Assembly: GCA_025362575.1 (NCBI GenBank)
Contig: JANYIQ010000109.1
Span: 1-34,661 of the forward strand
DNA: 34,661 bases
Source of the DNA: Bacteroidia bacterium
GTDB lineage: Bacteria; Bacteroidota; Bacteroidia; B-17B0; Aurantibacillaceae
Direction: 5' to 3'
The position numbers and the translations under genes are program-made. The notes below the pieces were generated by a model. The model was given only the letters and a program-made list of their open reading frames with translations. It was not told the origin of the DNA and did not search any database. This document shows positions 12,113 through 34,661 of the stretch, piece by piece (position 1 is the first letter of the stretch; each line of letters starts with the position of its first letter).

Positions 12113-13279
12113 ATGCGGAATACCACCTGCTTCGGATTGATTATTTTTTACCTTCTGCTATATTGCATGAAAGGCAAAGCACAGGAACTTGTCATAAAAA
12201 AAAGTGCAGGTGTAAAAACCATTTGGGATATTCCGCACAAAACACTCTTTGAAAAATGGATGTGGCCACATAGAAGCCTTGCATTCAAACTAACCAAGGA
12301 ACGAAAAGTAAATTACGATACAGCTTACATAAAATCCTATTATAAAAAACTAGTTGTAACACTGCCTATTTCGAATAGATTTCTAAAATTTGCTTTGTTG
12401 GATCTGGAAAGCGGGAACAAATTAAACTTTGCGCCTAATCTTCAATATAACCTTGGACTTTCAATCAGCTCAAGATGGGCTACTTTTATGATTAACTCAC
12501 GAGTTAAGGTATATGGTGGGAATTCAGATATTAAAGGGCAAACAAAATATCAAGATTATCAGCTTAATCTTTATGGAAGGAAATTTACTACAGATTTATT
12601 GGTACAATATTACAGTGGATTTTATATTAAAAACTCAAAAAATTATGATACTTATATAAGTGAAAAACCTTATGCACTCCGTGCAGATGTAAGTGCTTTC
12701 AATATGGGGATCAGTACTAACTATATTGTTAATCACAGACGATTTTCCTTTGGTAATTCATTCGGTTTTGTTGAACAACAGAAAAAAAGTGCGGGGTCTG
12801 TCCTATTAGGTGTTTATTATTCCTATTTTGATGTCAATAGCAGCCCTTCCTTAGTAACAGAGCCTTTTAGAAAAAATTTCGATTCACTTTCATTTTTACG
12901 GAACGGGCATTCCCATAATTTTGGCCTGAGCCTTGGTTATATTTATACTCTTGTTTTCCTAAAAAAATGTTACACTACTGTATCGCTTGTTCAAGGCATA
13001 GGAGGCAAGCAAGTAGTTTATACGCGCGAAGACAGCATTACTACAAAGAAATTAATTCCGGGCACCGCTAAACTCCATTTACGATTCGGTCTTGGATATG
13101 ATCAGGGTCGTTATTTCGTCGGTACAATGGGAATGTTCGATTATTTCATGTTTGGTGACAGGTCCGGCTCTGAATTAAGCTATAGCTATGGTAAATTCAT
13201 GGTATATGTTGGTTATCGCTTCTCCATTCTTAAACCTGAACGAAAATTGCTCCGAAAACTTAAATTGATAGATTACTAA
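12113..13279 (+). CDS. DUF4421 family outer-membrane protein
   Basis: A 388-residue protein. The ATG at 12113 gives a signal peptide (CFGLIIFYLLLYCMKGKAQ); the frame is open farther upstream but overlaps the lmo0937-like gene and is not signal-like. The body shows FAPNLQYNLGLSISSRW, the DYQLNLYGRKFTTDLLVQYY block and barrel-like strands to the end (GKFMVYVGYRFSIL), typical of DUF4421, a Bacteroidota family with predicted barrel structure. No terminator is visible after it; motif copy F begins 7 bp after its stop codon. Confidence 0.78.
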   Translation: MRNTTCFGLIIFYLLLYCMKGKAQELVIKKSAGVKTIWDIPHKTLFEKWMWPHRSLAFKLTKERKVNYDTAYIKSYYKKLVVTLPISNRFLKFALLDLESGNKLNFAPNLQYNLGLSISSRWATFMINSRVKVYGGNSDIKGQTKYQDYQLNLYGRKFTTDLLVQYYSGFYIKNSKNYDTYISEKPYALRADVSAFNMGISTNYIVNHRRFSFGNSFGFVEQQKKSAGSVLLGVYYSYFDVNSSPSLVTEPFRKNFDSLSFLRNGHSHNFGLSLGYIYTLVFLKKCYTTVSLVQGIGGKQVVYTREDSITTKKLIPGTAKLHLRFGLGYDQGRYFVGTMGMFDYFMFGDRSGSELSYSYGKFMVYVGYRFSILKPERKLLRKLKLIDY

Positions 13280-13285
13280 AAAAGC

Positions 13286-13348
13286 GTGAATAATGTAACT
13301 TAATTAAAAAGTTTCACAACATTCCCGGCGCAAGAGAAGCCACCTTTA
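13286..13348 (+). promoter_or_regulatory. Shared promoter motif, copy F
   Basis: GTGAAT at 13286, TGTAAC at 13294, CACAAC at 13315 and CACCTTTA at 13341. Half-sites are 21 bp apart and the box begins 26 bp after the second. It would drive the 13394/13518-15770 gene run. Confidence 0.75.
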
Positions 13349-13393
13349 CGCAGCGGAAATTTGATTATATTATTTAATTCAAAAAACCAAATT

Positions 13394-13456
13394 ATGATCG
13401 GAGGAAAAGGGTCAATAGGTGTAAAAAGGTCTAATCGAGGGTTGCAGGAATTATAG
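13394..13456 (+). CDS. Possible 20-residue leader or remnant ORF
   Basis: ATG 13394 to TAG 13456 encodes MIGGKGSIGVKRSNRGLQEL, 46 bp after promoter box F and 61 bp before the next gene. Being so short, it may be a leader peptide, the start of a decayed gene or chance. I do not recognise it. Confidence 0.3.
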   Translation: MIGGKGSIGVKRSNRGLQEL

Positions 13457-13517
13457 TTTTTATCACCCTTCAATTTATTAGGTAGAAAAGTTTATACATC
13501 ACAAAAAAAAATAAAAC

Positions 13518-13670
13518 ATGGAAAATTTGCTATACATTATTGCGGTAATTCTGATTATTGGCTGGGCAGTTGGCTTTTTAGGCTTTCATGCGGGCGGACT
13601 AATTCACGTATTATTGGTAATCGCACTTATAGCCGTTATTTTACGCATCATTAAAGGAAAACAATTATAA
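13518..13670 (+). CDS. lmo0937-like mini membrane protein, copy 2
   Basis: A 50-residue protein (ATG 13518, TAA 13668-13670) with [35 protein letters not shown] and a basic tail RIIKGKQL. It aligns without gaps over its whole length to copy 1 at 11863, with many conservative changes, so this is an old duplication. Its neighbours are YtxH and a holin-X-like protein, a grouping I associate with stress-type small membrane genes. Confidence 0.85.
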
Positions 13671-13683
13671 ATTTAAATCAATT

Positions 13684-13938
13684 ATGGAAAATTCAAACAA
13701 TTCAGTAAAACTTGTTGGAGCCTTATTACTTGGCGCAGCAGTTGGCGCAGCATTAGGGATTCTTTTTGCTCCGGATAAAGGCAGCGAAACTCGTAAAAAA
13801 ATCGCAGGAAAAACAAGCGATCTCACCGATTCCTTGCAAGAGAAATTTCAGGCTTTTTTGGAAGATGCCAAAAAGGAATTTGAAAGTGCTAAGGATAAAA
13901 CTACGCATCTTACAGATGAAACGAACACAAAAACATAA
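13684..13938 (+). CDS. YtxH-like stress protein
   Basis: An 84-residue protein with one N-terminal glycine-rich membrane helix ([21 protein letters not shown]) followed by the YtxH signature [13 protein letters not shown] and an amphipathic helix with [20 protein letters not shown]. YtxH proteins are SigB-type general-stress proteins in Bacillus; the function is unknown. It lies 13 bp after the mini membrane gene and 9 bp before the next, so clearly within an operon. Confidence 0.88.
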
Positions 13939-13947
13939 GAGCACGTA

Positions 13948-14292
13948 ATGGAAAACGATAACACACCAACCGTAGAAGTCCTTTTTGAAAAAACAGAATC
14001 TTATGTAAAAGTAAGCACTGAGGTTTTTAAACTGAAGATGATAAATAAGATCTCAGAAGTAGTTTCTGACCTAACAGCAAAACTTGCTGTAATAGTTTTC
14101 ATCGCACTATTCTTTTTAATCTTCAATATTGGTGTTTCTTTGTGGATAGGCGAACTATTTGGGAAAATGTATCTTGGTTTTTTCATCGTATCAGCATTTT
14201 ATATGCTTACGGGAGTTGTCCTTTATCTATTTCGTAATAGTTGGATCAAGGTCCCACTAAGAAATGCCATCATTACAAGTTCATTAAACTAG
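13948..14292 (+). CDS. Phage-holin-3_6 (holin-X)-like membrane protein
   Basis: A 114-residue protein. An N-terminal amphipathic part (EKTESYVKVSTEVFKLKMI) is followed by two membrane helices (LAVIVFIALFFLIFNIGVSL and YLGFFIVSAFYMLTGVVLYLF), the layout of the putative holin-X family that commonly follows YtxH in Bacteroidota. Despite the name there is no phage context here; it is a chromosomal stress-operon member. Confidence 0.75.
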   Translation: MENDNTPTVEVLFEKTESYVKVSTEVFKLKMINKISEVVSDLTAKLAVIVFIALFFLIFNIGVSLWIGELFGKMYLGFFIVSAFYMLTGVVLYLFRNSWIKVPLRNAIITSSLN

Positions 14293-14685: not shown

Positions 14686-15770
14686 TGAACGAAACTTTTA
14701 AAATTCCTTTTTACGCTAAAATAGCGCTCATTTCTATTGGGCTTTTTTTCTTTGTTTATACCATGTATTTAGGTCAAGAAATTATTATTCCTATTGTATT
14801 TGGAACAGTCATTGCAATTTTGGTAAACCCTCTTGTTAATTTTTTAACAAACAAGGGCTTAAGTAGAATAGTATCTATCTCCATGGCTGTAATGCTTGTT
14901 ATTCTTGTTGTCGTTGGGATTTTTTACATTGTTTCATCGCAAGTTACCGTGTTTAGTGAAACATACCCTCAATTAAAATTAAAATTTAATGCCGCTAGTC
15001 GTCAATTGGTGCATTGGATCTCAGAAAAATTTAATATTCGTATTTCAAAGATTAATACATGGACTAAAGAAACACAAAGCGAAGCAATAGACAATTTTGA
15101 ATTTGGAGAAAAATTTATAGAAGTAAGTCGTAGTATGATAACGCTTATGCTTTTACCGGTTTATTTGTTCATGATACTTTACTACAAACCGCTTTTGCTT
15201 AATTTTGTTCGTCAACTTTTTGGGCACGAACATCAAAGCGTAGTAGAGCAAGTTTTATTAGGAAGCAAAAAGGTAATTCAAAGTTATCTTGTTGGTCTTT
15301 TTTTTGAAATGATAATTGTTGCAAGCCTTAACTCCATATGCTTACTTATTTTAGGAATCGATTATGCCATAATTCTGGGAATAACGGGCGCTATTGTTAA
15401 TATAGTACCTTATATAGGAGGCATTATAGCAATTGCTTTACCAATGATAATCGCTTTTGTAACAAAAGAATCATCAACATACCCTATTCTTGTATTTTGT
15501 ATTTATATTTTGATTCAGTTTATCGACAATCATTATATCATTCCAAAAATTGTCGCCTCTAAGGTTCAAATTAACGCGTTGGTTTCTGTAATTGTAATTT
15601 TAATAGGCGCTGCCATATGGGGAATTCCTGGTATGTTCCTTTCTATTCCCTTAACGGCAATTTTCAAGGTTATTTTTGACCACATTGAATCTTTAAAGCC
15701 CTGGGGATTTTTGCTAGGAAATGTTGTCCCTACAGCTAAACATTTTTCTCCAAGTAAAAATAAACCATAG
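14685..15770 (+). CDS. AI-2E family (PF01594) membrane transporter
   Basis: A 361-residue polytopic protein with about seven or eight helices (FYAKIALISIGLFFFVYTMY, IIPIVFGTVIAILVNPLVNF, ISMAVMLVILVVVGIFYIV, ITLMLLPVYLFMILYY and a C-terminal cluster). The family signature GIPGMFLSIPLTAIFKVIFDH near the C-terminus is present, as is the IVNIVPYIGGIIAIALPMII loop. Members have been linked to AI-2 export or Na+/H+ antiport; which applies cannot be told here. The start codon overlaps the upstream stop. Last gene of the unit led by motif copy F. Confidence 0.9.
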   Translation: MNETFKIPFYAKIALISIGLFFFVYTMYLGQEIIIPIVFGTVIAILVNPLVNFLTNKGLSRIVSISMAVMLVILVVVGIFYIVSSQVTVFSETYPQLKLKFNAASRQLVHWISEKFNIRISKINTWTKETQSEAIDNFEFGEKFIEVSRSMITLMLLPVYLFMILYYKPLLLNFVRQLFGHEHQSVVEQVLLGSKKVIQSYLVGLFFEMIIVASLNSICLLILGIDYAIILGITGAIVNIVPYIGGIIAIALPMIIAFVTKESSTYPILVFCIYILIQFIDNHYIIPKIVASKVQINALVSVIVILIGAAIWGIPGMFLSIPLTAIFKVIFDHIESLKPWGFLLGNVVPTAKHFSPSKNKP

Positions 15771-16401
15771 ATGTTTGGCCTTTCTGCAACCGGTCGGCTT
15801 TTCCTTGAAATATTTATCAGAATGGCAGCTAAATCCATCGCCAACGAATACCCAAGAAGAAAATAAATTGCGATTGATTAAGACCGGCAAAACCGAAAGG
15901 TTAACGTAGATAGCGGTAAATTAGTTGTTAGAAGGGACAATAGAATTGAAATAAAATTCTGTAACGAGTGGATCCTTCTATGGCTAAACCCTTAAAATCC
16001 ACAGCCATTTCTTGCTAGTCTATATTTATTGTGCCTGAAATAATACGGCTTCGGTTCTTTGTATTTAAACGCTTCGGTAAGCTCAGCTTCTTTTAAAGTA
16101 AATTTCATTTACCAGCTTTAGGTCGACCTTTCTAAAAATGCACACCACACATTTTCTTAATACCTAACCCCCCCGGTTGTACCGTAGGTTTTTAACATAG
16201 CTATTTTTTGATGAGCTGAAATGTTGGATTCTGTATCTTTTTTGCCGAATATTGCACCGGTTTGTTGAGCTTTGAGTCGATTCCTCTACATTTAAAGTCC
16301 TGTGTCTTAAAGGACGTAAGGGTTTAAGTCCAGTTTGGGCTACGTAGAAAGGCGAGTAACTAGCTTGCTTTTTTTTTGATTTAAAATTGCTGGTTATAAT
16401 T
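15771..16401. other. 630-bp stretch without a convincing gene
   Basis: Neither strand has a reading frame that looks coding. Short fragments on the minus strand around 16190-16270 and 15992-16108 read like protein-coding remnants but are broken by stops and frame changes and match no family I recognise. There is a C7 run near 16169-16175. No tRNA, terminator or shared promoter motif was found. The stretch may be decayed sequence, or the 5' leader and promoter region of rluF at its right end. Confidence 0.5.
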
Positions 16402-17094
16402 ATGAAAATAGATAAATACATTGCTGATTCAGGTTTTTGCTCAAGGCGCAAAGCCTGCGATCTGCTTGAAGAAAACAGAGTGCAGGTAAATGGTAAGCCG
16501 GCGACTTTCAAAACTGAAATAAAAGAAAAAGATCTGATCATGATCGATGGGCAACAGTTAATTGTAAAAGAATTCGTACCAACCTATATCGTATACAATA
16601 AACCGAAAGGTATCGAGTGCACCTCTGAAAAAATCGAGAATAATATTATTGATGCTATCGGGCATGAACAGAATATTTTTCCCGTTGGTCGATTGGATAA
16701 GGATTCAGAAGGATTGATCTTACTTACCAATCATCGCGAGATCATTGACAAGATCACTAACTCCGGTCATGGTCACGAAAAAGAATACATTGTTACTTTG
16801 AATTTACCGGTGCGCAAACAATTCTTAAGAGAAATTTCAGAGGGAGTGATGATACTTGGTGAAAAAACAAAGCCTTGTGTAGTAAGTTTAGAGCCAAATG
16901 CCAAACGCATTTTCAGAATAACACTAACGCAAGGTCTCAATCGCCAGATCCGTCGTATGTGCAATGCAGCAGGTTATCAAGTGATAAAACTTCAACGCGT
17001 TAGAGTAGTGAATATCAAATTAGGAAAGCTAAAATTAGGTGAGTGGCGAAATTTAACCGCAGAAGAATTAACAGATTTATTAGCTTCATTGTAG
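16402..17094 (+). CDS. rluF: 23S rRNA pseudouridine synthase, RluF-like
   Basis: A 230-residue protein. An S4 RNA-binding domain (KIDKYIADSGFCSRRKACDLL, ~residues 1-55) precedes the RsuA-type catalytic domain. The catalytic Asp lies in GRLDKDSEGLILLTN; HEKEYIVTL, ILGEKTKPC, the RITLTQGLNRQIRRMC block and LGEWRNLTAEEL follow, in the order typical of RluF. In E. coli RluF modifies U2604 of 23S rRNA. The ATG at 16402 starts directly at the S4 domain; an in-frame alternative start at 16387 adds only MLVII. It is ~60 residues shorter than E. coli RluF, mainly at the C-terminus. Confidence 0.88.
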   Translation: MKIDKYIADSGFCSRRKACDLLEENRVQVNGKPATFKTEIKEKDLIMIDGQQLIVKEFVPTYIVYNKPKGIECTSEKIENNIIDAIGHEQNIFPVGRLDKDSEGLILLTNHREIIDKITNSGHGHEKEYIVTLNLPVRKQFLREISEGVMILGEKTKPCVVSLEPNAKRIFRITLTQGLNRQIRRMCNAAGYQVIKLQRVRVVNIKLGKLKLGEWRNLTAEELTDLLASL

Positions 17095-31642: not shown

Positions 31643-32611
31643 ATGTTAGAGGGCAAACAACTAATATTGGCTACCAAGCCTTTTATGAAAGAAGACCGGT
31701 TTAAAAGCTGGTACTATACCCTGAGCACCCTTTTTATTTTGATCGCATTGCTTTTTGGAACTATTCACAATTTTCACTGGAGCTTAAAATTGCTTTCCAG
31801 CATTGCAGCCGGATTTGTAATTGTGCGGTTGTTTGTTATTTATCACGACCATCAGCATAAATCTATTCTTAACAAGTCAAAAGCAGCCGATATTTTATTT
31901 ACCATCTTTGGATTTTATGTTCTGGCGCCAACCGGTATCTGGAGCAGAAGTCACGATTACCATCACAAGAACAATTCTAAATTATACAGCGCCAGCATTG
32001 GTTCTTACCCTATTTATTCAAAACAAAAATTTTTGAAGAGTTCTAAGTCTGAGCAAAGACATTATTTATTCATTCGGCACCCTTTAACAATTGCCTTTGG
32101 TTTTATTTTTGCGTTCATGTGGGGCATGTGTTTTCAATCCATCATTAATCGTTTCAGTAAACACATTGATTCTCTTGTAGCGTTAATTGTACATTTTGCA
32201 TATCAATTCGCTGTGTTCTATTTTTTAGGATGGCATACCTGGATCCTGTTATGTGCTATCCCGCATTTTATTTCGGGAGCCATGGGAGCTTATTTATTTT
32301 ATGCGCAGCATAATTTTCCGGGTGCAACCTTTAAGGGTAACGAAGATTGGACTTACGAAGGCGCTGCGCTGGAATCATCGAGTTACATGGAATTAAGCGC
32401 ACCTTTAAAGTGGGCTACTGCAAATATTGGTTATCATCATATTCATCACATCAATGCCCGCATTCCTTTTTACCGTTTACCTGAAGTGATGGATGCCATC
32501 CCTGAATTGCATACTACAAAACGTACGTCTTTAAAACCCAAAGATGTTATGGCTTGTTTCAAACTAAAAGTTTGGGATCTTGAAAATCAAAAGATGGTGG
32601 GCTTGGGGTAG
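31643..32611 (+). CDS. Fatty-acid desaturase
   Basis: A 322-residue membrane di-iron enzyme. The three histidine boxes are clear: YHDHQHKS (near residue 67), SHDYHHKNNS (near 103) and the distal NIGYHHIHHINARIP (near 270). Membrane helices lie between them (WYYTLSTLFILIALLFGTI, LLSSIAAGFVIVRLFVIY, IAFGFIFAFMWGMCFQSII, FAVFYFLGWHTWILLCAIPH). It would introduce double bonds into acyl lipids, a common route to membrane fluidity in the cold. The ATG at 31643 is preferred to 31613 because the -7 box lies between them. Confidence 0.9.
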   Translation: MLEGKQLILATKPFMKEDRFKSWYYTLSTLFILIALLFGTIHNFHWSLKLLSSIAAGFVIVRLFVIYHDHQHKSILNKSKAADILFTIFGFYVLAPTGIWSRSHDYHHKNNSKLYSASIGSYPIYSKQKFLKSSKSEQRHYLFIRHPLTIAFGFIFAFMWGMCFQSIINRFSKHIDSLVALIVHFAYQFAVFYFLGWHTWILLCAIPHFISGAMGAYLFYAQHNFPGATFKGNEDWTYEGAALESSSYMELSAPLKWATANIGYHHIHHINARIPFYRLPEVMDAIPELHTTKRTSLKPKDVMACFKLKVWDLENQKMVGLG

Positions 32612-32691
32612 GGGTTTTGGGAGGAGGGTATTGGTGTTAGTAGCAATCAATAAGAAATCTTAGTTTTGAATGGTCCTAATTTTTGGGGAGC

Positions 32692-33147
32692 TTACATCAT
32701 GCAACCTCCTTCTTTATTATTCAAACTATGTATTTTTATCATCCCTCTGGAAATATAGGATTCGCTTAATAAATATTTATCCTTTTCCTTTGTAAGAAGT
32801 TTTATAGCAAGATTAATATGATTAAAAGCAGAAGTATATTCCTCAAAAAATATTTGTACATTTCCGAGCAAAAAATGAGCCTCTCCATCTGAAGGGTTAA
32901 TTTTTAAGTTAGCATTCAAATCAGAAATAGCACCTCTATTATCTTCTAATTTAAATTTTGCTTTTGCCCGAAGTAAATAAGCATAGGATTTTTTTGGAAA
33001 TTTATTGATACCAACAGTAGACCATTTAATAAAATTGAATACGTTTTCCTCTAATCCCCCATCATTATTTACATTACTGGTAACGTTTTCCAAGCAGGCG
33101 TAAGTTTTTTGCTTGTCCAAGTTATGCATTTGAGCGTTAACACGCAA
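32692..33147 (-). CDS. TPR protein whose 5' end is replaced by a cassette recombination element
   Basis: The frame encodes 151 residues, but residues 1 to ~23 (MRVNAQMHNLDKQKTYACLE and a few more) are only the translation of the structured element at 33081-33175. From ~residue 24 it reads as a genuine tetratricopeptide-repeat protein (SYAYLLRAKAKFKLEDNRGA, NPSDGEAHFLLGNVQIFFEE, ALNH-type helices and KYLLSESYISRGMIKIHS). There is no native ATG before the TPR part; the next Met is near the C-terminus. The simplest reading is a gene cut at a G-TTAC site when the cassettes were inserted. An ATG at 33129 or 33147 within the element could still allow expression. It has no element of its own downstream. 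Confidence 0.6.
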   Translation of the reverse strand: MRVNAQMHNLDKQKTYACLENVTSNVNNDGGLEENVFNFIKWSTVGINKFPKKSYAYLLRAKAKFKLEDNRGAISDLNANLKINPSDGEAHFLLGNVQIFFEEYTSAFNHINLAIKLLTKEKDKYLLSESYISRGMIKIHSLNNKEGGCMM

Positions 33148-33175
33148 AAAATTACGCTTGCTTGGTGTTAGGGCG
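33081..33175 (-). repeat. attC-like cassette recombination element 1
   Basis: Outer boxes TAAC (33081-33084) and GTTA (33167-33170) pair. A 14-bp arm CCAAGCAGGCGTAA (33090-33103) pairs with TTACGCTTGCTTGG (33152-33165), one G-T. An unpaired G (33104) follows, then TTTTTTGC pairs with GCAAAAAA, closing a 31-nt loop. The spacer between outer box and arm is GTTTT on one side and T on the other. Element 2 has the same plan. This asymmetry, an extrahelical base and simple GTTA ends are features of integron attC sites. It also provides the stop codon of the methyltransferase (33168-33170). Confidence 0.72.
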
Positions 33176-33878
33176 TCGTTTTTTTATTTCCATAATACAT
33201 CCCACGTCCGATTAAACCTTTTTCGTCAAATGTTACGTCAAGGTCGGCAAGTTTAAAAGCATTGAACATTTCTTCTTTTGATGTCAGCCGAAGTTTGTGT
33301 TCTTCTTGGAAATGTTGAACTCCCTTGTCCATATTACCAACTAAATAATGGAAATTTAATATTGAGAAGTCACCGGATAAATAACTTCTATTCATTCGGC
33401 AAATTTTAATGTCCTCTTTGTCGCTCGCAATCATATGAACTTTGCCTTTATGCCAGTTGTCTTTGTTAAACCATGGCTCAACAATTAATAGTCCGTTTGG
33501 TTTTAGGTGCTTGTTAAAACATTTTAAAGCAGAAATAATTTCGTCAACAGTTTGCAAATAACCAATTGAACTAAACAAGCAAATAATAACGTCGTACTGT
33601 TTGTTTAGGTCAAACTGTTTCATATTTGCAACACTGTAATGTCCAGAAGGATTTTTTTGCTTTGATGTCACGATAAATTTGTCGTTTAGGTCAATTCCGT
33701 CAATGGAAAAATATTTGCTTAAATATTTATGATGTTCCGATGTCCCGCAACCGATGTCAAGAATGCTTTTACATTCAGGTCGAGCAGATTTAATTACCTG
33801 AATGATGTCCGCAGATTCTTTTTCATAGTCTTTGAAGCTATAAACTAAATCATATATGTCTGAACTGTCTGTGAACAT
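33168..33878 (-). CDS. SAM-dependent class I methyltransferase (cassette gene)
   Basis: A 236-residue protein. Motif I is SILDIGCGTSEHHKYLSKYF, followed by IDGIDLNDKFI (motif II, Asp for the ribose) and DVIICLFSSIGYLQ (motif IV region), then ALKCFNKHLKPNGLLIVEPW: a Rossmann methyltransferase of the Methyltransf_25/11 type. Substrate unknown. ATG 33878 lies 28 nt after the cassette start; the longer frame to 33965 only translates the neighbouring element. The last residues and the stop codon come from element 1. No promoter is evident, as is usual for cassette genes read from outside. Its stop overlaps the start region of element 1 by design rather than by chance. Confidence 0.85.
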   Translation of the reverse strand: MFTDSSDIYDLVYSFKDYEKESADIIQVIKSARPECKSILDIGCGTSEHHKYLSKYFSIDGIDLNDKFIVTSKQKNPSGHYSVANMKQFDLNKQYDVIICLFSSIGYLQTVDEIISALKCFNKHLKPNGLLIVEPWFNKDNWHKGKVHMIASDKEDIKICRMNRSYLSGDFSILNFHYLVGNMDKGVQHFQEEHKLRLTSKEEMFNAFKLADLDVTFDEKGLIGRGMYYGNKKTTP

Positions 33879-33899
33879 TGTCGTCTGTCTAAAAATGCG

Positions 33900-33996
33900 C
33901 CCTAACGTTTTGCGCCTAGGCTTCCGTTTTTTGCTGGTCCAAGTTATGCATTTGAGCGCTAACACGCAAAAAATGGAGCTTAGGCGCTGTTATAAG
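33900..33996 (-). repeat. attC-like cassette recombination element 2
   Basis: Same plan as element 1: TAAC (33903-33906) with GTTA (33989-33992); arm GCGCCTAGGCTTCC (33912-33925) with TGGAGCTTAGGCGC (33974-33987); unpaired G at 33926; TTTTTTGC with GCAAAAAA; a 31-nt loop nearly identical to that of element 1. Seven of the 14 arm pairs differ from element 1 by compensating changes on both sides. The asymmetrical spacer (GTTTT against T) is kept. On the minus strand it follows the small secreted protein gene by ~60 bp. Confidence 0.72.
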
Positions 33997-34053
33997 TTGG
34001 CTGGCGCACATGGTTTTTCTGTCGGTGTCTGCTGATAAAAATGTCAAATAAAA

Positions 34054-34530
34054 TTATAATGCTAATAAATATGAAGCTGCTCCGTAAATTTCCTCACCGT
34101 CAATTTGCTTAATTAATTTATTTGTGGAAGTATAAATTTTATTGTCTTTGATATAAGGTGCGGTTGTTTTGTCACTTTCGATTCCATTTTTTAAATGGAT
34201 TATTTTTTTGTCAGAAGTTAAATATCCAATTTCTGTTTCCGTTTCTACGGAATCTAGTGAGAAGATTTTAGCTTTTTCGTCATAGTGAGCTCTTTTGCCG
34301 CAAGCATATACTTTATTGTCTACGATTTTAATTACAGCGTTATTAACTGGTTTTATGTCCTTAAGAGTTAGCGAACATTGCATGCATTTAAATATTTTTC
34401 CGGTTGATTTCTCGAAATAGTCGTAATTATTTTTTTCTATTTTGCCGTCCGAGTTAACTGCATAAACAGTTGTTTGTCCTTTTAGGGACGATGCAATTGT
34501 TAGTCCTGAAAGTAAAATTAGTGTTTTCAT
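34054..34530 (-). CDS. Small secreted protein of unknown function (cassette gene)
   Basis: A 158-residue protein with signal peptide MKTLILLSGLTIASSLKGQ. The mature part is beta-rich with alternating charged and aliphatic residues (GYLTSDKKIIHLKNGIES, APYIKDNKIYTSTNKLIKQI). A CxxC pair (FKCMQCSLTLKD) and one further Cys (YACGKRAH) occur. Repeated phrases of the form I-x-D-N-K-(I/V)-Y (KIVDNKVYACG, YIKDNKIYTST) suggest short strand repeats. No known family recognised. It is the first complete cassette in the array; the 80-nt leader between the cassette start and the ATG could hold a promoter, but no perfect TAnnTTTG box is present. Confidence 0.72.
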   Translation of the reverse strand: MKTLILLSGLTIASSLKGQTTVYAVNSDGKIEKNNYDYFEKSTGKIFKCMQCSLTLKDIKPVNNAVIKIVDNKVYACGKRAHYDEKAKIFSLDSVETETEIGYLTSDKKIIHLKNGIESDKTTAPYIKDNKIYTSTNKLIKQIDGEEIYGAASYLLAL

Positions 34531-34586
34531 GTCATTTAGTTTTTAGTATAACGTATTTTGCCTTCAAGTATTGTGTCTTTAGACGA

Positions 34587-34611
34587 CGATGTCCGCCAGC
34601 TTACTTATAAC
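34587..34611 (-). repeat. Cassette 1 start, extended inverted match to the end of element 2
   Basis: Read on the minus strand from 34611 it begins GTTATAAGT, then GCTGGCG, then ACAT. Plus-strand 33989-34013 has the same blocks at the same spacing, 21 of 25 positions equal. The two ends of the cassette are thus inverted repeats well beyond the 7-8 bases of an integron core site. Confidence 0.6.
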
Positions 34612-34661
34612 GTCAGTCTGTCTAAAAACTAACTGTTTAAACAAAAATACGAATTAAAACG

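Follow-up and report, generated by a model that had tools for sequence, protein, structure and literature searches.

Are the two minus-strand genes at the right end of a contig from a member of the Bacteroidota gene cassettes and, if so, what kind of recombinase would move them? The contig (JANYIQ010000109.1 of assembly GCA_025362575.1, a Bacteroidia bacterium of the family Aurantibacillaceae) is 34,661 nt long and was analysed at full length, hereafter the window; it is the whole of contig C241 in a draft genome of 4.32 Mb that is 98.1% complete and split into 327 contigs. A preliminary description had noted that the two genes, between 33084 and 34610, are each followed by a structured element of ~95 bp, and had proposed integron-type cassettes with either an unrecognised attC class or a different cassette system. 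Judging from sequence comparisons across the phylum, we consider it very probable that the two genes are cassettes of an integron-like platform of Bacteroidota that uses a tyrosine recombinase other than the integron integrase IntI. The array consists of two one-gene cassettes that span exactly those coordinates, each with one folded site, which measures 90 nt rather than ~95 bp; the two elements are 80% identical to each other and each stands behind a minus-strand gene. The features are as follows, R1 being a covariance model of the element built from an alignment to which both window elements belong:

33906..34610, minus strand: cassette 1, 705 bp; begins with TTATAAG (following G^TT) and ends on the G of the following junction
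33084..33905, minus strand: cassette 2, 822 bp; begins with TTAGGGC and ends on the G of the final junction
33903..33992, minus strand: attC-like folded element of cassette 1; R1 score 104.3 bits; folding z -2.87 (minus strand) and -4.14 (plus strand)
33081..33170, minus strand: attC-like folded element of cassette 2; R1 score 107 bits; folding z -5.33 (minus strand) and -5.10 (plus strand)
34604..34611, minus strand: R'-like box at the start of cassette 1 (GTTATAAG), at the junction
33989..33996, minus strand: R''-like box of cassette 1, before its own element (CTTATAAC); exact reverse complement of the R' box of cassette 1
33899..33906, minus strand: R'-like box at the start of cassette 2 (GTTAGGGC)
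33167..33174, minus strand: R''-like box of cassette 2, before its own element (GCCCTAAC)
34054..34530, minus strand: gene of cassette 1 (158 aa); start resembles a signal peptide by eye, Pfam match sub-threshold only
33168..33878, minus strand: gene of cassette 2, 236 aa; Pfam methyltransferase (PF13649, E 1.4e-11)

Of the cargo foreseen, the methyltransferase is backed by its Pfam match; the start of the other protein suggests that it may be secreted, as had been supposed.

Cassette starts pair with the ends of the same cassettes

The minus-strand junctions in the window read ACG^TTA, and the start of cassette 2 is complementary to its own element at 4/4 variable positions. The first bases of each cassette had been claimed to pair with the outer box of that cassette's own downstream element, and this held on cassettes outside the window. 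For 46 consecutive same-strand element pairs, drawn from a list purged of opposite-strand shadows and of most duplicate places (L076 1930, for instance, repeats L142 5931), we compared the four variable start bases with the reverse complement before the downstream element. The match was exact in 35 of the 46 cassettes, which come from related genomes and are not fully independent, against 3.8% for random pairs; the boxes flanking one integrated element paired in 4/102. The complementarity is not confined to the 8-nt box: agreement at positions 9-20 was 51-52%, compared with 26-27% for shuffled partners, and fell to the background level at positions 21-30, so that start and end of a cassette are complementary for about 20 nt.

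Among the 35 verified cassettes, the longest open reading frame (ORF) lay on the strand of the element in 34 and on the opposite strand in none, the remaining cassette having no ORF of 50 aa. Judged by this longest ORF, cassettes carry one gene each in the same orientation, and the elements end single genes instead of lying away from gene ends, an outcome that would have spoken against cassettes. The same cassette, or cassette end, was also found beside different neighbours. A cassette of genome G028 recurs whole (1-644 of 644) in G032 with 84.7% identity, where the preceding element has different arms, and its last 286 nt are also present in G022 at 94.8%. Within the window's own genome, contigs C255 and C231 share a cassette end that is identical over 129 nt up to GTTA and continue with different cassettes.

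The elements conserve a fold

On the minus strand, the elements have the layout TAAC-A-(left arm)-TTTTTTGC-(loop)-GCAAAAAA-C-(right arm)-AAAACG^TTA. We aligned 40 elements, out of 51 with both ends clear, and found 94.5% of the cells paired and 109 cells in which both sides had changed (mean of the shuffles 34.9), values each reached by 0/500 shuffles. Two-sided change occurred in 10 pairs, including 9/9 outer arm pairs; as expected of attC sites, structure is therefore conserved above sequence in the arms, whereas the apical loop of this short class is itself conserved in sequence. An A faces a C at columns 20/69 in 39/40 rows, as a bulge in some and a mispair in others. A second class of ~125 nt, present in the same arrays, keeps mainly TAACA, the arms and AAACG^TTA and differs in its inner loops (18 rows). 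When folded as DNA, the bottom strand was the more stable one in 62/88 short and 20/28 long elements, with mean gains of 1.2 and 1.7 kcal/mol, respectively.

The classical integron core boxes have the consensus GTTRRRY and RYYYAAC. These were fitted by 9/110 and 10/115 of the boxes; GTT/AAC itself is kept, and the actual boxes read GTTANNN/NNNTAAC. Taken with the features of the recombinase described below, this bears out the better half of the preliminary description, namely its suspicion of an unrecognised attC class or a different cassette system. No Rfam family was matched at gathering score (at E up to 1, four microRNA models alone appeared, far under their thresholds), and a tRNA scan gave no match.

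R1 elements are present in 51/87 genomes of the window's family. The window's own genome has 24 matches to the model, two of which are opposite-strand shadows and several of which lie at contig ends. In a sample of 395 genomes of the phylum, R1 was found in 17, the window's own included, mostly as weak matches of 125-127 nt, which suggests that the loop class of the short elements belongs mainly to the window's family. The 125-127 nt matches in other families score ~35-40 bits (G101, G102, G219, G389, G192, G184, G092, G145 and others) and perhaps represent the long class; six of these genomes (G102, G184, G389, G092, G145 and G219) also encode a relative of the recombinase described below. 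A search for the exact core pattern returned 42 more stretches in contigs of named genomes, of which 38 carry a Bacteroidota name in their title and 4 read only 'bacterium'; with the matches in the window's own genome, these show that the elements are no chance feature. The same pattern had no match in viral contigs, and blastn with one element had none among plasmids and phages.

Arrays lie behind a tyrosine recombinase and an attI-like site

A search of the 87 family genomes with the IntI model retrieved many recombinases of ~375-400 aa that match model positions 1-180 and 238-315, several of them adjoining elements. In the loci that we read, the arrays are located downstream of the tyrosine recombinase gene and co-oriented with it. 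We examined 60 recombinase neighbourhoods and took 46/60 ORFs as one subfamily by their C-terminal motif, a remnant from the window's own genome (L022) being among the 46. Downstream of the stop codon, 43/46 have a site ending in [TC]ATA[AT]NNNA directly before GTTA, at 89-102 nt in 28/43 and at 942 nt in the farthest case. The pattern occurred upstream in 1/46 and in 1.4% of shuffles. By position and sequence, this is an entry point beside the integrase gene, as attI is in integrons. In five loci (L138, L150, L153, L156 and L180) an extra gene, ORF6N-/BRO-like by eye, separates the recombinase from the attI-like site, which then lies 660-942 nt away. Recombinase contigs often seem to end shortly downstream of the recombinase, as expected if repeat arrays break the assembly.

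Of the 395 genomes in the phylum sample, 118 had a recombinase match at E 1e-50, and the 30 best loci were used; L215, for which the pattern gave no ORF, was left out of the site count. An attI-like site was found at most 160 nt downstream in 26/29 loci and upstream in none. With the strict form of the pattern, 16 loci have a site, and the 8-mer that opens the first cassette recurs, reverse-complemented, within 1.5 kb in 11/16 (control 0.4%; 2/16 had no remaining sequence to search). Close reading of 9 loci showed that the box before the first detected element is matched exactly by a partner at the attI-like site in 7 and, in L138 and L154, by one at a later junction.

The same layout of recombinase, attI-like site and cassettes, with junctions read by eye, is present on complete Chryseobacterium and Pontibacter plasmids. 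On those of Chryseobacterium sp. SNU WT5 (NZ_CP041688.1) and C. oryzae (NZ_CP094530.1), a recombinase with 62% identity over 65% of the query (WP_143853951.1 in SNU WT5) is followed by TATAAACAA directly before GTT and by cassette genes that are co-oriented with it. The recombinase of Pontibacter kalidii (NZ_CP111080.1) is more distant (44.9%); behind it come ATATACTATAG^TTATGTA and a first cassette closed by TACATAAC.

One Chryseobacterium plasmid array (L200) also contains a palindromic unit of ~175 bp in which we noticed no ORF, running from GTTGGG... to ...GGCCGTTA or GGCCATTA. It stands at four junctions (starts at ~9891, 11986, 14367 and 17436), as if it were a site-only cassette. The same array holds genes for an IS110-family transposase and a group II intron reverse transcriptase (13041-14042 and 15507-16823), both on the opposite strand and, by eye, inside attC-like sites; IS1111/IS110 elements and group IIC introns target attC. 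Finally, relatives of the recombinase occur in 138 Acinetobacter plasmid records (48.9% identity over 59% of the query, among the matches listed); in one record the protein is named TnpF.

The recombinase lacks the IntI-specific insertion

The additional domain that is specific to IntI (I2) is missing from the recombinase. The spacing from KDR to HxLRHS is 58-59 residues in 87/91 recombinase rows, compared with 100 in 16/16 IntI. The four exceptions comprise the IntI of L145 (100) and three rows of 60, 65 and 66 residues. The XerD-like protein of the window's own genome (L009) has 66. In an alignment with the solved IntI4 (2A3V), residues 186-244 have no partner in the recombinase. Three members that were scanned reach 197 to 207 bits with TIGR02249 and do not pass its cut-off of 265; their nearest NCBIfam model is NF040815, 'site-specific tyrosine recombinase/integron integrase', with 208.6 to 218.3 bits at a cut-off of 220. 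In three scanned members, ~110-125 residues precede the SAM-like domain, and five pieces of this N-terminal region gave no Pfam match over cut-off.

In agreement with these features, the tree (from which we had removed the 792-aa IntI row L248 before alignment and a duplicate L145 row afterwards) groups the 16 IntI together (100/99) and unites 80 of the new recombinases in a branch of their own (98/99). The Pontibacter recombinase and eight family rows fall outside both; a further plasmid recombinase, on a long branch, groups with IntI. As the Xer-like rows of our own set are few and long-branched, the tree is in effect unrooted and carries no order of origin. A closed genome (G003) has at least two copies of the recombinase, which is also found on plasmids; both facts tend to speak against a core-gene role in Xer chromosome dimer resolution at dif.

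True IntI over the curated cut-off was detected in 105/395 genomes of the phylum sample, so the assumption that integrons are uncommon in the phylum needs qualifying; one of the 105 genomes belongs to the window's class. Across the 87 family genomes, IntI passed the cut-off in one (G043:C26:4401-5339, L145; read with 1 TGA inside).

The array in the window and in its own genome

Two further stretches flank the cassettes:

34611..34661, minus strand: 3' terminus of the preceding unit (upstream of cassette 1), truncated at the contig end, by comparison with other contigs of the same genome
32692..33083, minus strand: TPR-like reading frame joined to the last element; sub-threshold TPR matches, own element not detected

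The right-hand stretch has 93-98% identity with contigs C246, C212 and C211 up to the same G^TTA, beyond which the sequences differ. We had considered these 51 nt as attI and dropped the idea: attI-like sites behind recombinases end in TATAAGGTA directly before GTTA or alike, and the stretch is hence now read as the end of another cassette. On the left, the TPR-like frame seems to have lost its 5' part at the junction and may be a cassette that was truncated or has decayed, or else mark the edge of the array. The array itself is not part of a conserved neighbourhood, which would have spoken against cassettes: in 7/7 sister species the match to the left flank ends with a desaturase gene at 32601-32602 and does not continue into the array, and the sister genomes have no DNA match to 32603-33033.

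The recombinase sought to the right of the array is not on the window contig; in related genomes, such a gene lies upstream of the arrays. What the window's own genome yielded are two remnants. On C282, a C-terminal part with stops is followed by TATAAGCTA, then GTTAGGTG and an array; on C211, a scrap with a weak match (15.7 bits) is followed by CATAAGGTA and then GTTAGGTG, as read by eye. Since these are remnants alone, the array in the window is probably a leftover that is no longer autonomous.

Weighing the alternatives

In a classical integron, a true IntI would move the cassettes and the recombinase described here would be a chance neighbour. IntI does occur in the phylum and, once, in the window's family, but that single genome among 87 has to be set against the 51 that carry R1 elements; the attI-like site, moreover, is nearly fixed in place behind the non-IntI recombinase, and GTTRRRY is met by 9/110 core boxes alone, so that we hold a classical integron to be very unlikely. 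Transposon-like units with terminal inverted repeats of ~20 nt, inserted in tandem, would account for the similar length over which cassette start and end are complementary. Such an origin is nevertheless extremely unlikely, because the units are arranged head-to-tail in one orientation with one shared site, and their entry site lies behind a recombinase. Transcription terminators, RNA elements or palindromes resembling repetitive extragenic palindromes (REP) or miniature inverted-repeat transposable elements (MITE) that happen to follow genes would likewise stand at gene ends and fold, but they find no counterpart in Rfam and deserve hardly any credence: they leave unexplained the attI-like site, the cassettes shared between different neighbours and, above all, the pairing of the box that follows one element with that preceding the next one. 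These three explanations were rejected on this evidence.

Another explanation, that the recombinase acts on ordinary double-stranded sites and that the stem loops are by-products or binding-site dyads instead of the shape of its substrate, draws on the missing I2 insertion, on dyads seen by eye in the attI-like sites and on the weak strand bias. The arms, however, change wholesale with compensation (9/9 outer pairs two-sided) and the inner loops differ between classes, which together points to recognition by shape; the box pairs, too, belong to one cassette and not to one integrated site. We consider double-stranded sites unlikely.

Several observations weigh against the integron-like platform with a non-IntI recombinase that we favour. 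The attI pattern was written after inspection of the loci holding the same 46 genes, 3/46 of which lack the site by this pattern, and 3/14 other tyrosine recombinases do have it; the phylum sample is a different set, but the pattern applied to it had been relaxed (GTT[AG], first bases) following the strict run, and 3/29 loci still lack the site. Among the consecutive element pairs, 11/46 do not match at 4/4 positions, although some may hide an undetected element in between. Ten pairs with change on both sides were reached by 6/500 shuffles, and the bottom-strand preference is weak, the top strand being more stable in 25/88 short and 8/28 long elements. The recombinase lacks the domain that the literature deems necessary for recombination of folded sites, and its single-sequence fold was uninformative (predicted local distance difference test, pLDDT, 38.6). 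Lastly, the search of the window's own genome yielded no intact copy of such a recombinase (none at 1e-50).

A proposed mechanism and its place among known systems

From this anatomy, we infer a recombinase that acts on the cassettes, folding as single strands, circular intermediates, a choice of strand and cassettes without promoters of their own. A cassette would comprise one gene and one attC-like folded recombination site; once it is free as a circle, the sequences flanking the G^TT cut would form a long outer stem by base pairing. The tyrosine recombinase, encoded upstream of the array and co-oriented with it, would recognise the folded site mainly by its shape and insert the circle at the attI-like site just past the stop codon of the recombinase gene; at attC sites it would cut cassettes out and rearrange them.

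This resembles the IntI integrons, both class 1 and chromosomal, in the tyrosine recombinase gene with adjacent attI, the unidirectional array of one-gene cassettes, and the folded attC-like site of each cassette, cut at G^TT and paired at the cassette start with its own R''-like box. Unlike IntI, the recombinase lacks the specific insertion, falls outside the IntI clade and is co-oriented with the array (IntI is usually divergent); the boxes are GTTANNN/NNNTAAC and the outer complementarity reaches about 20 nt. Clusters of attC sites without integrase (CALIN) are similar in that the window's genome has arrays for which no intact recombinase was found, and differ in that the present elements depart from the classical consensus and a decayed non-IntI recombinase lies beside two arrays. 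With XerC/XerD, archaeal XerA and the integrative mobile elements exploiting Xer (IMEX, such as CTXphi), the recombinase shares near-cut-off NF040815 scores and the lack of I2; three scanned members differ from Xer in the ~110-125 residues before the SAM-like domain. No Xer protein is known to have cassette arrays or its own attI.

For CTXphi, integration as a single-strand hairpin is described in the available text of PMC7790495. The reverse-orientation integrons of Spirochaetota, in the portion of PMC9668308 available, share with the present system an integrase that is reversed relative to the usual layout, but theirs is an IntI. The same portion calls the additional domain of IntI defining and, like that of PMC8618304, counts Bacteroidota among the phyla with integrons; the gain of the I2 helix is presented as the step from a double-strand recombinase to recombination of folded single strands (PMC7790495 and PMC4792948, available text). 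In the available part of PMC8352920, no group of Bacteroidota is named among the taxon models for attC of Ghaly et al. Among the matches listed in our literature search, whose coverage mostly excludes subscription journals and preprints, no paper described this system in its title or abstract opening.

The layout of the system is one that should function like an integron; it lacks the protein feature that defines IntI integrons and is not one of these. We therefore describe it as integron-type with new features, possibly of an origin independent of integrons. There is a slightly better than even chance that it forms a second, phylum-wide integron class with folded cassettes, whose recombinase never had I2, either through an independent origin or as the surviving pre-I2 state. 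If true, folded cassettes without I2 would contradict the rule that cassette recombination through single strands depends on I2, and the platform would be a natural test of the claim about I2 gain. It would further imply that a gene-capture system of many Bacteroidota, present also on complete plasmids of named strains, can escape surveys based on IntI and classical attC, and the phylum may thus have a second, overlooked way of moving genes as cassettes.

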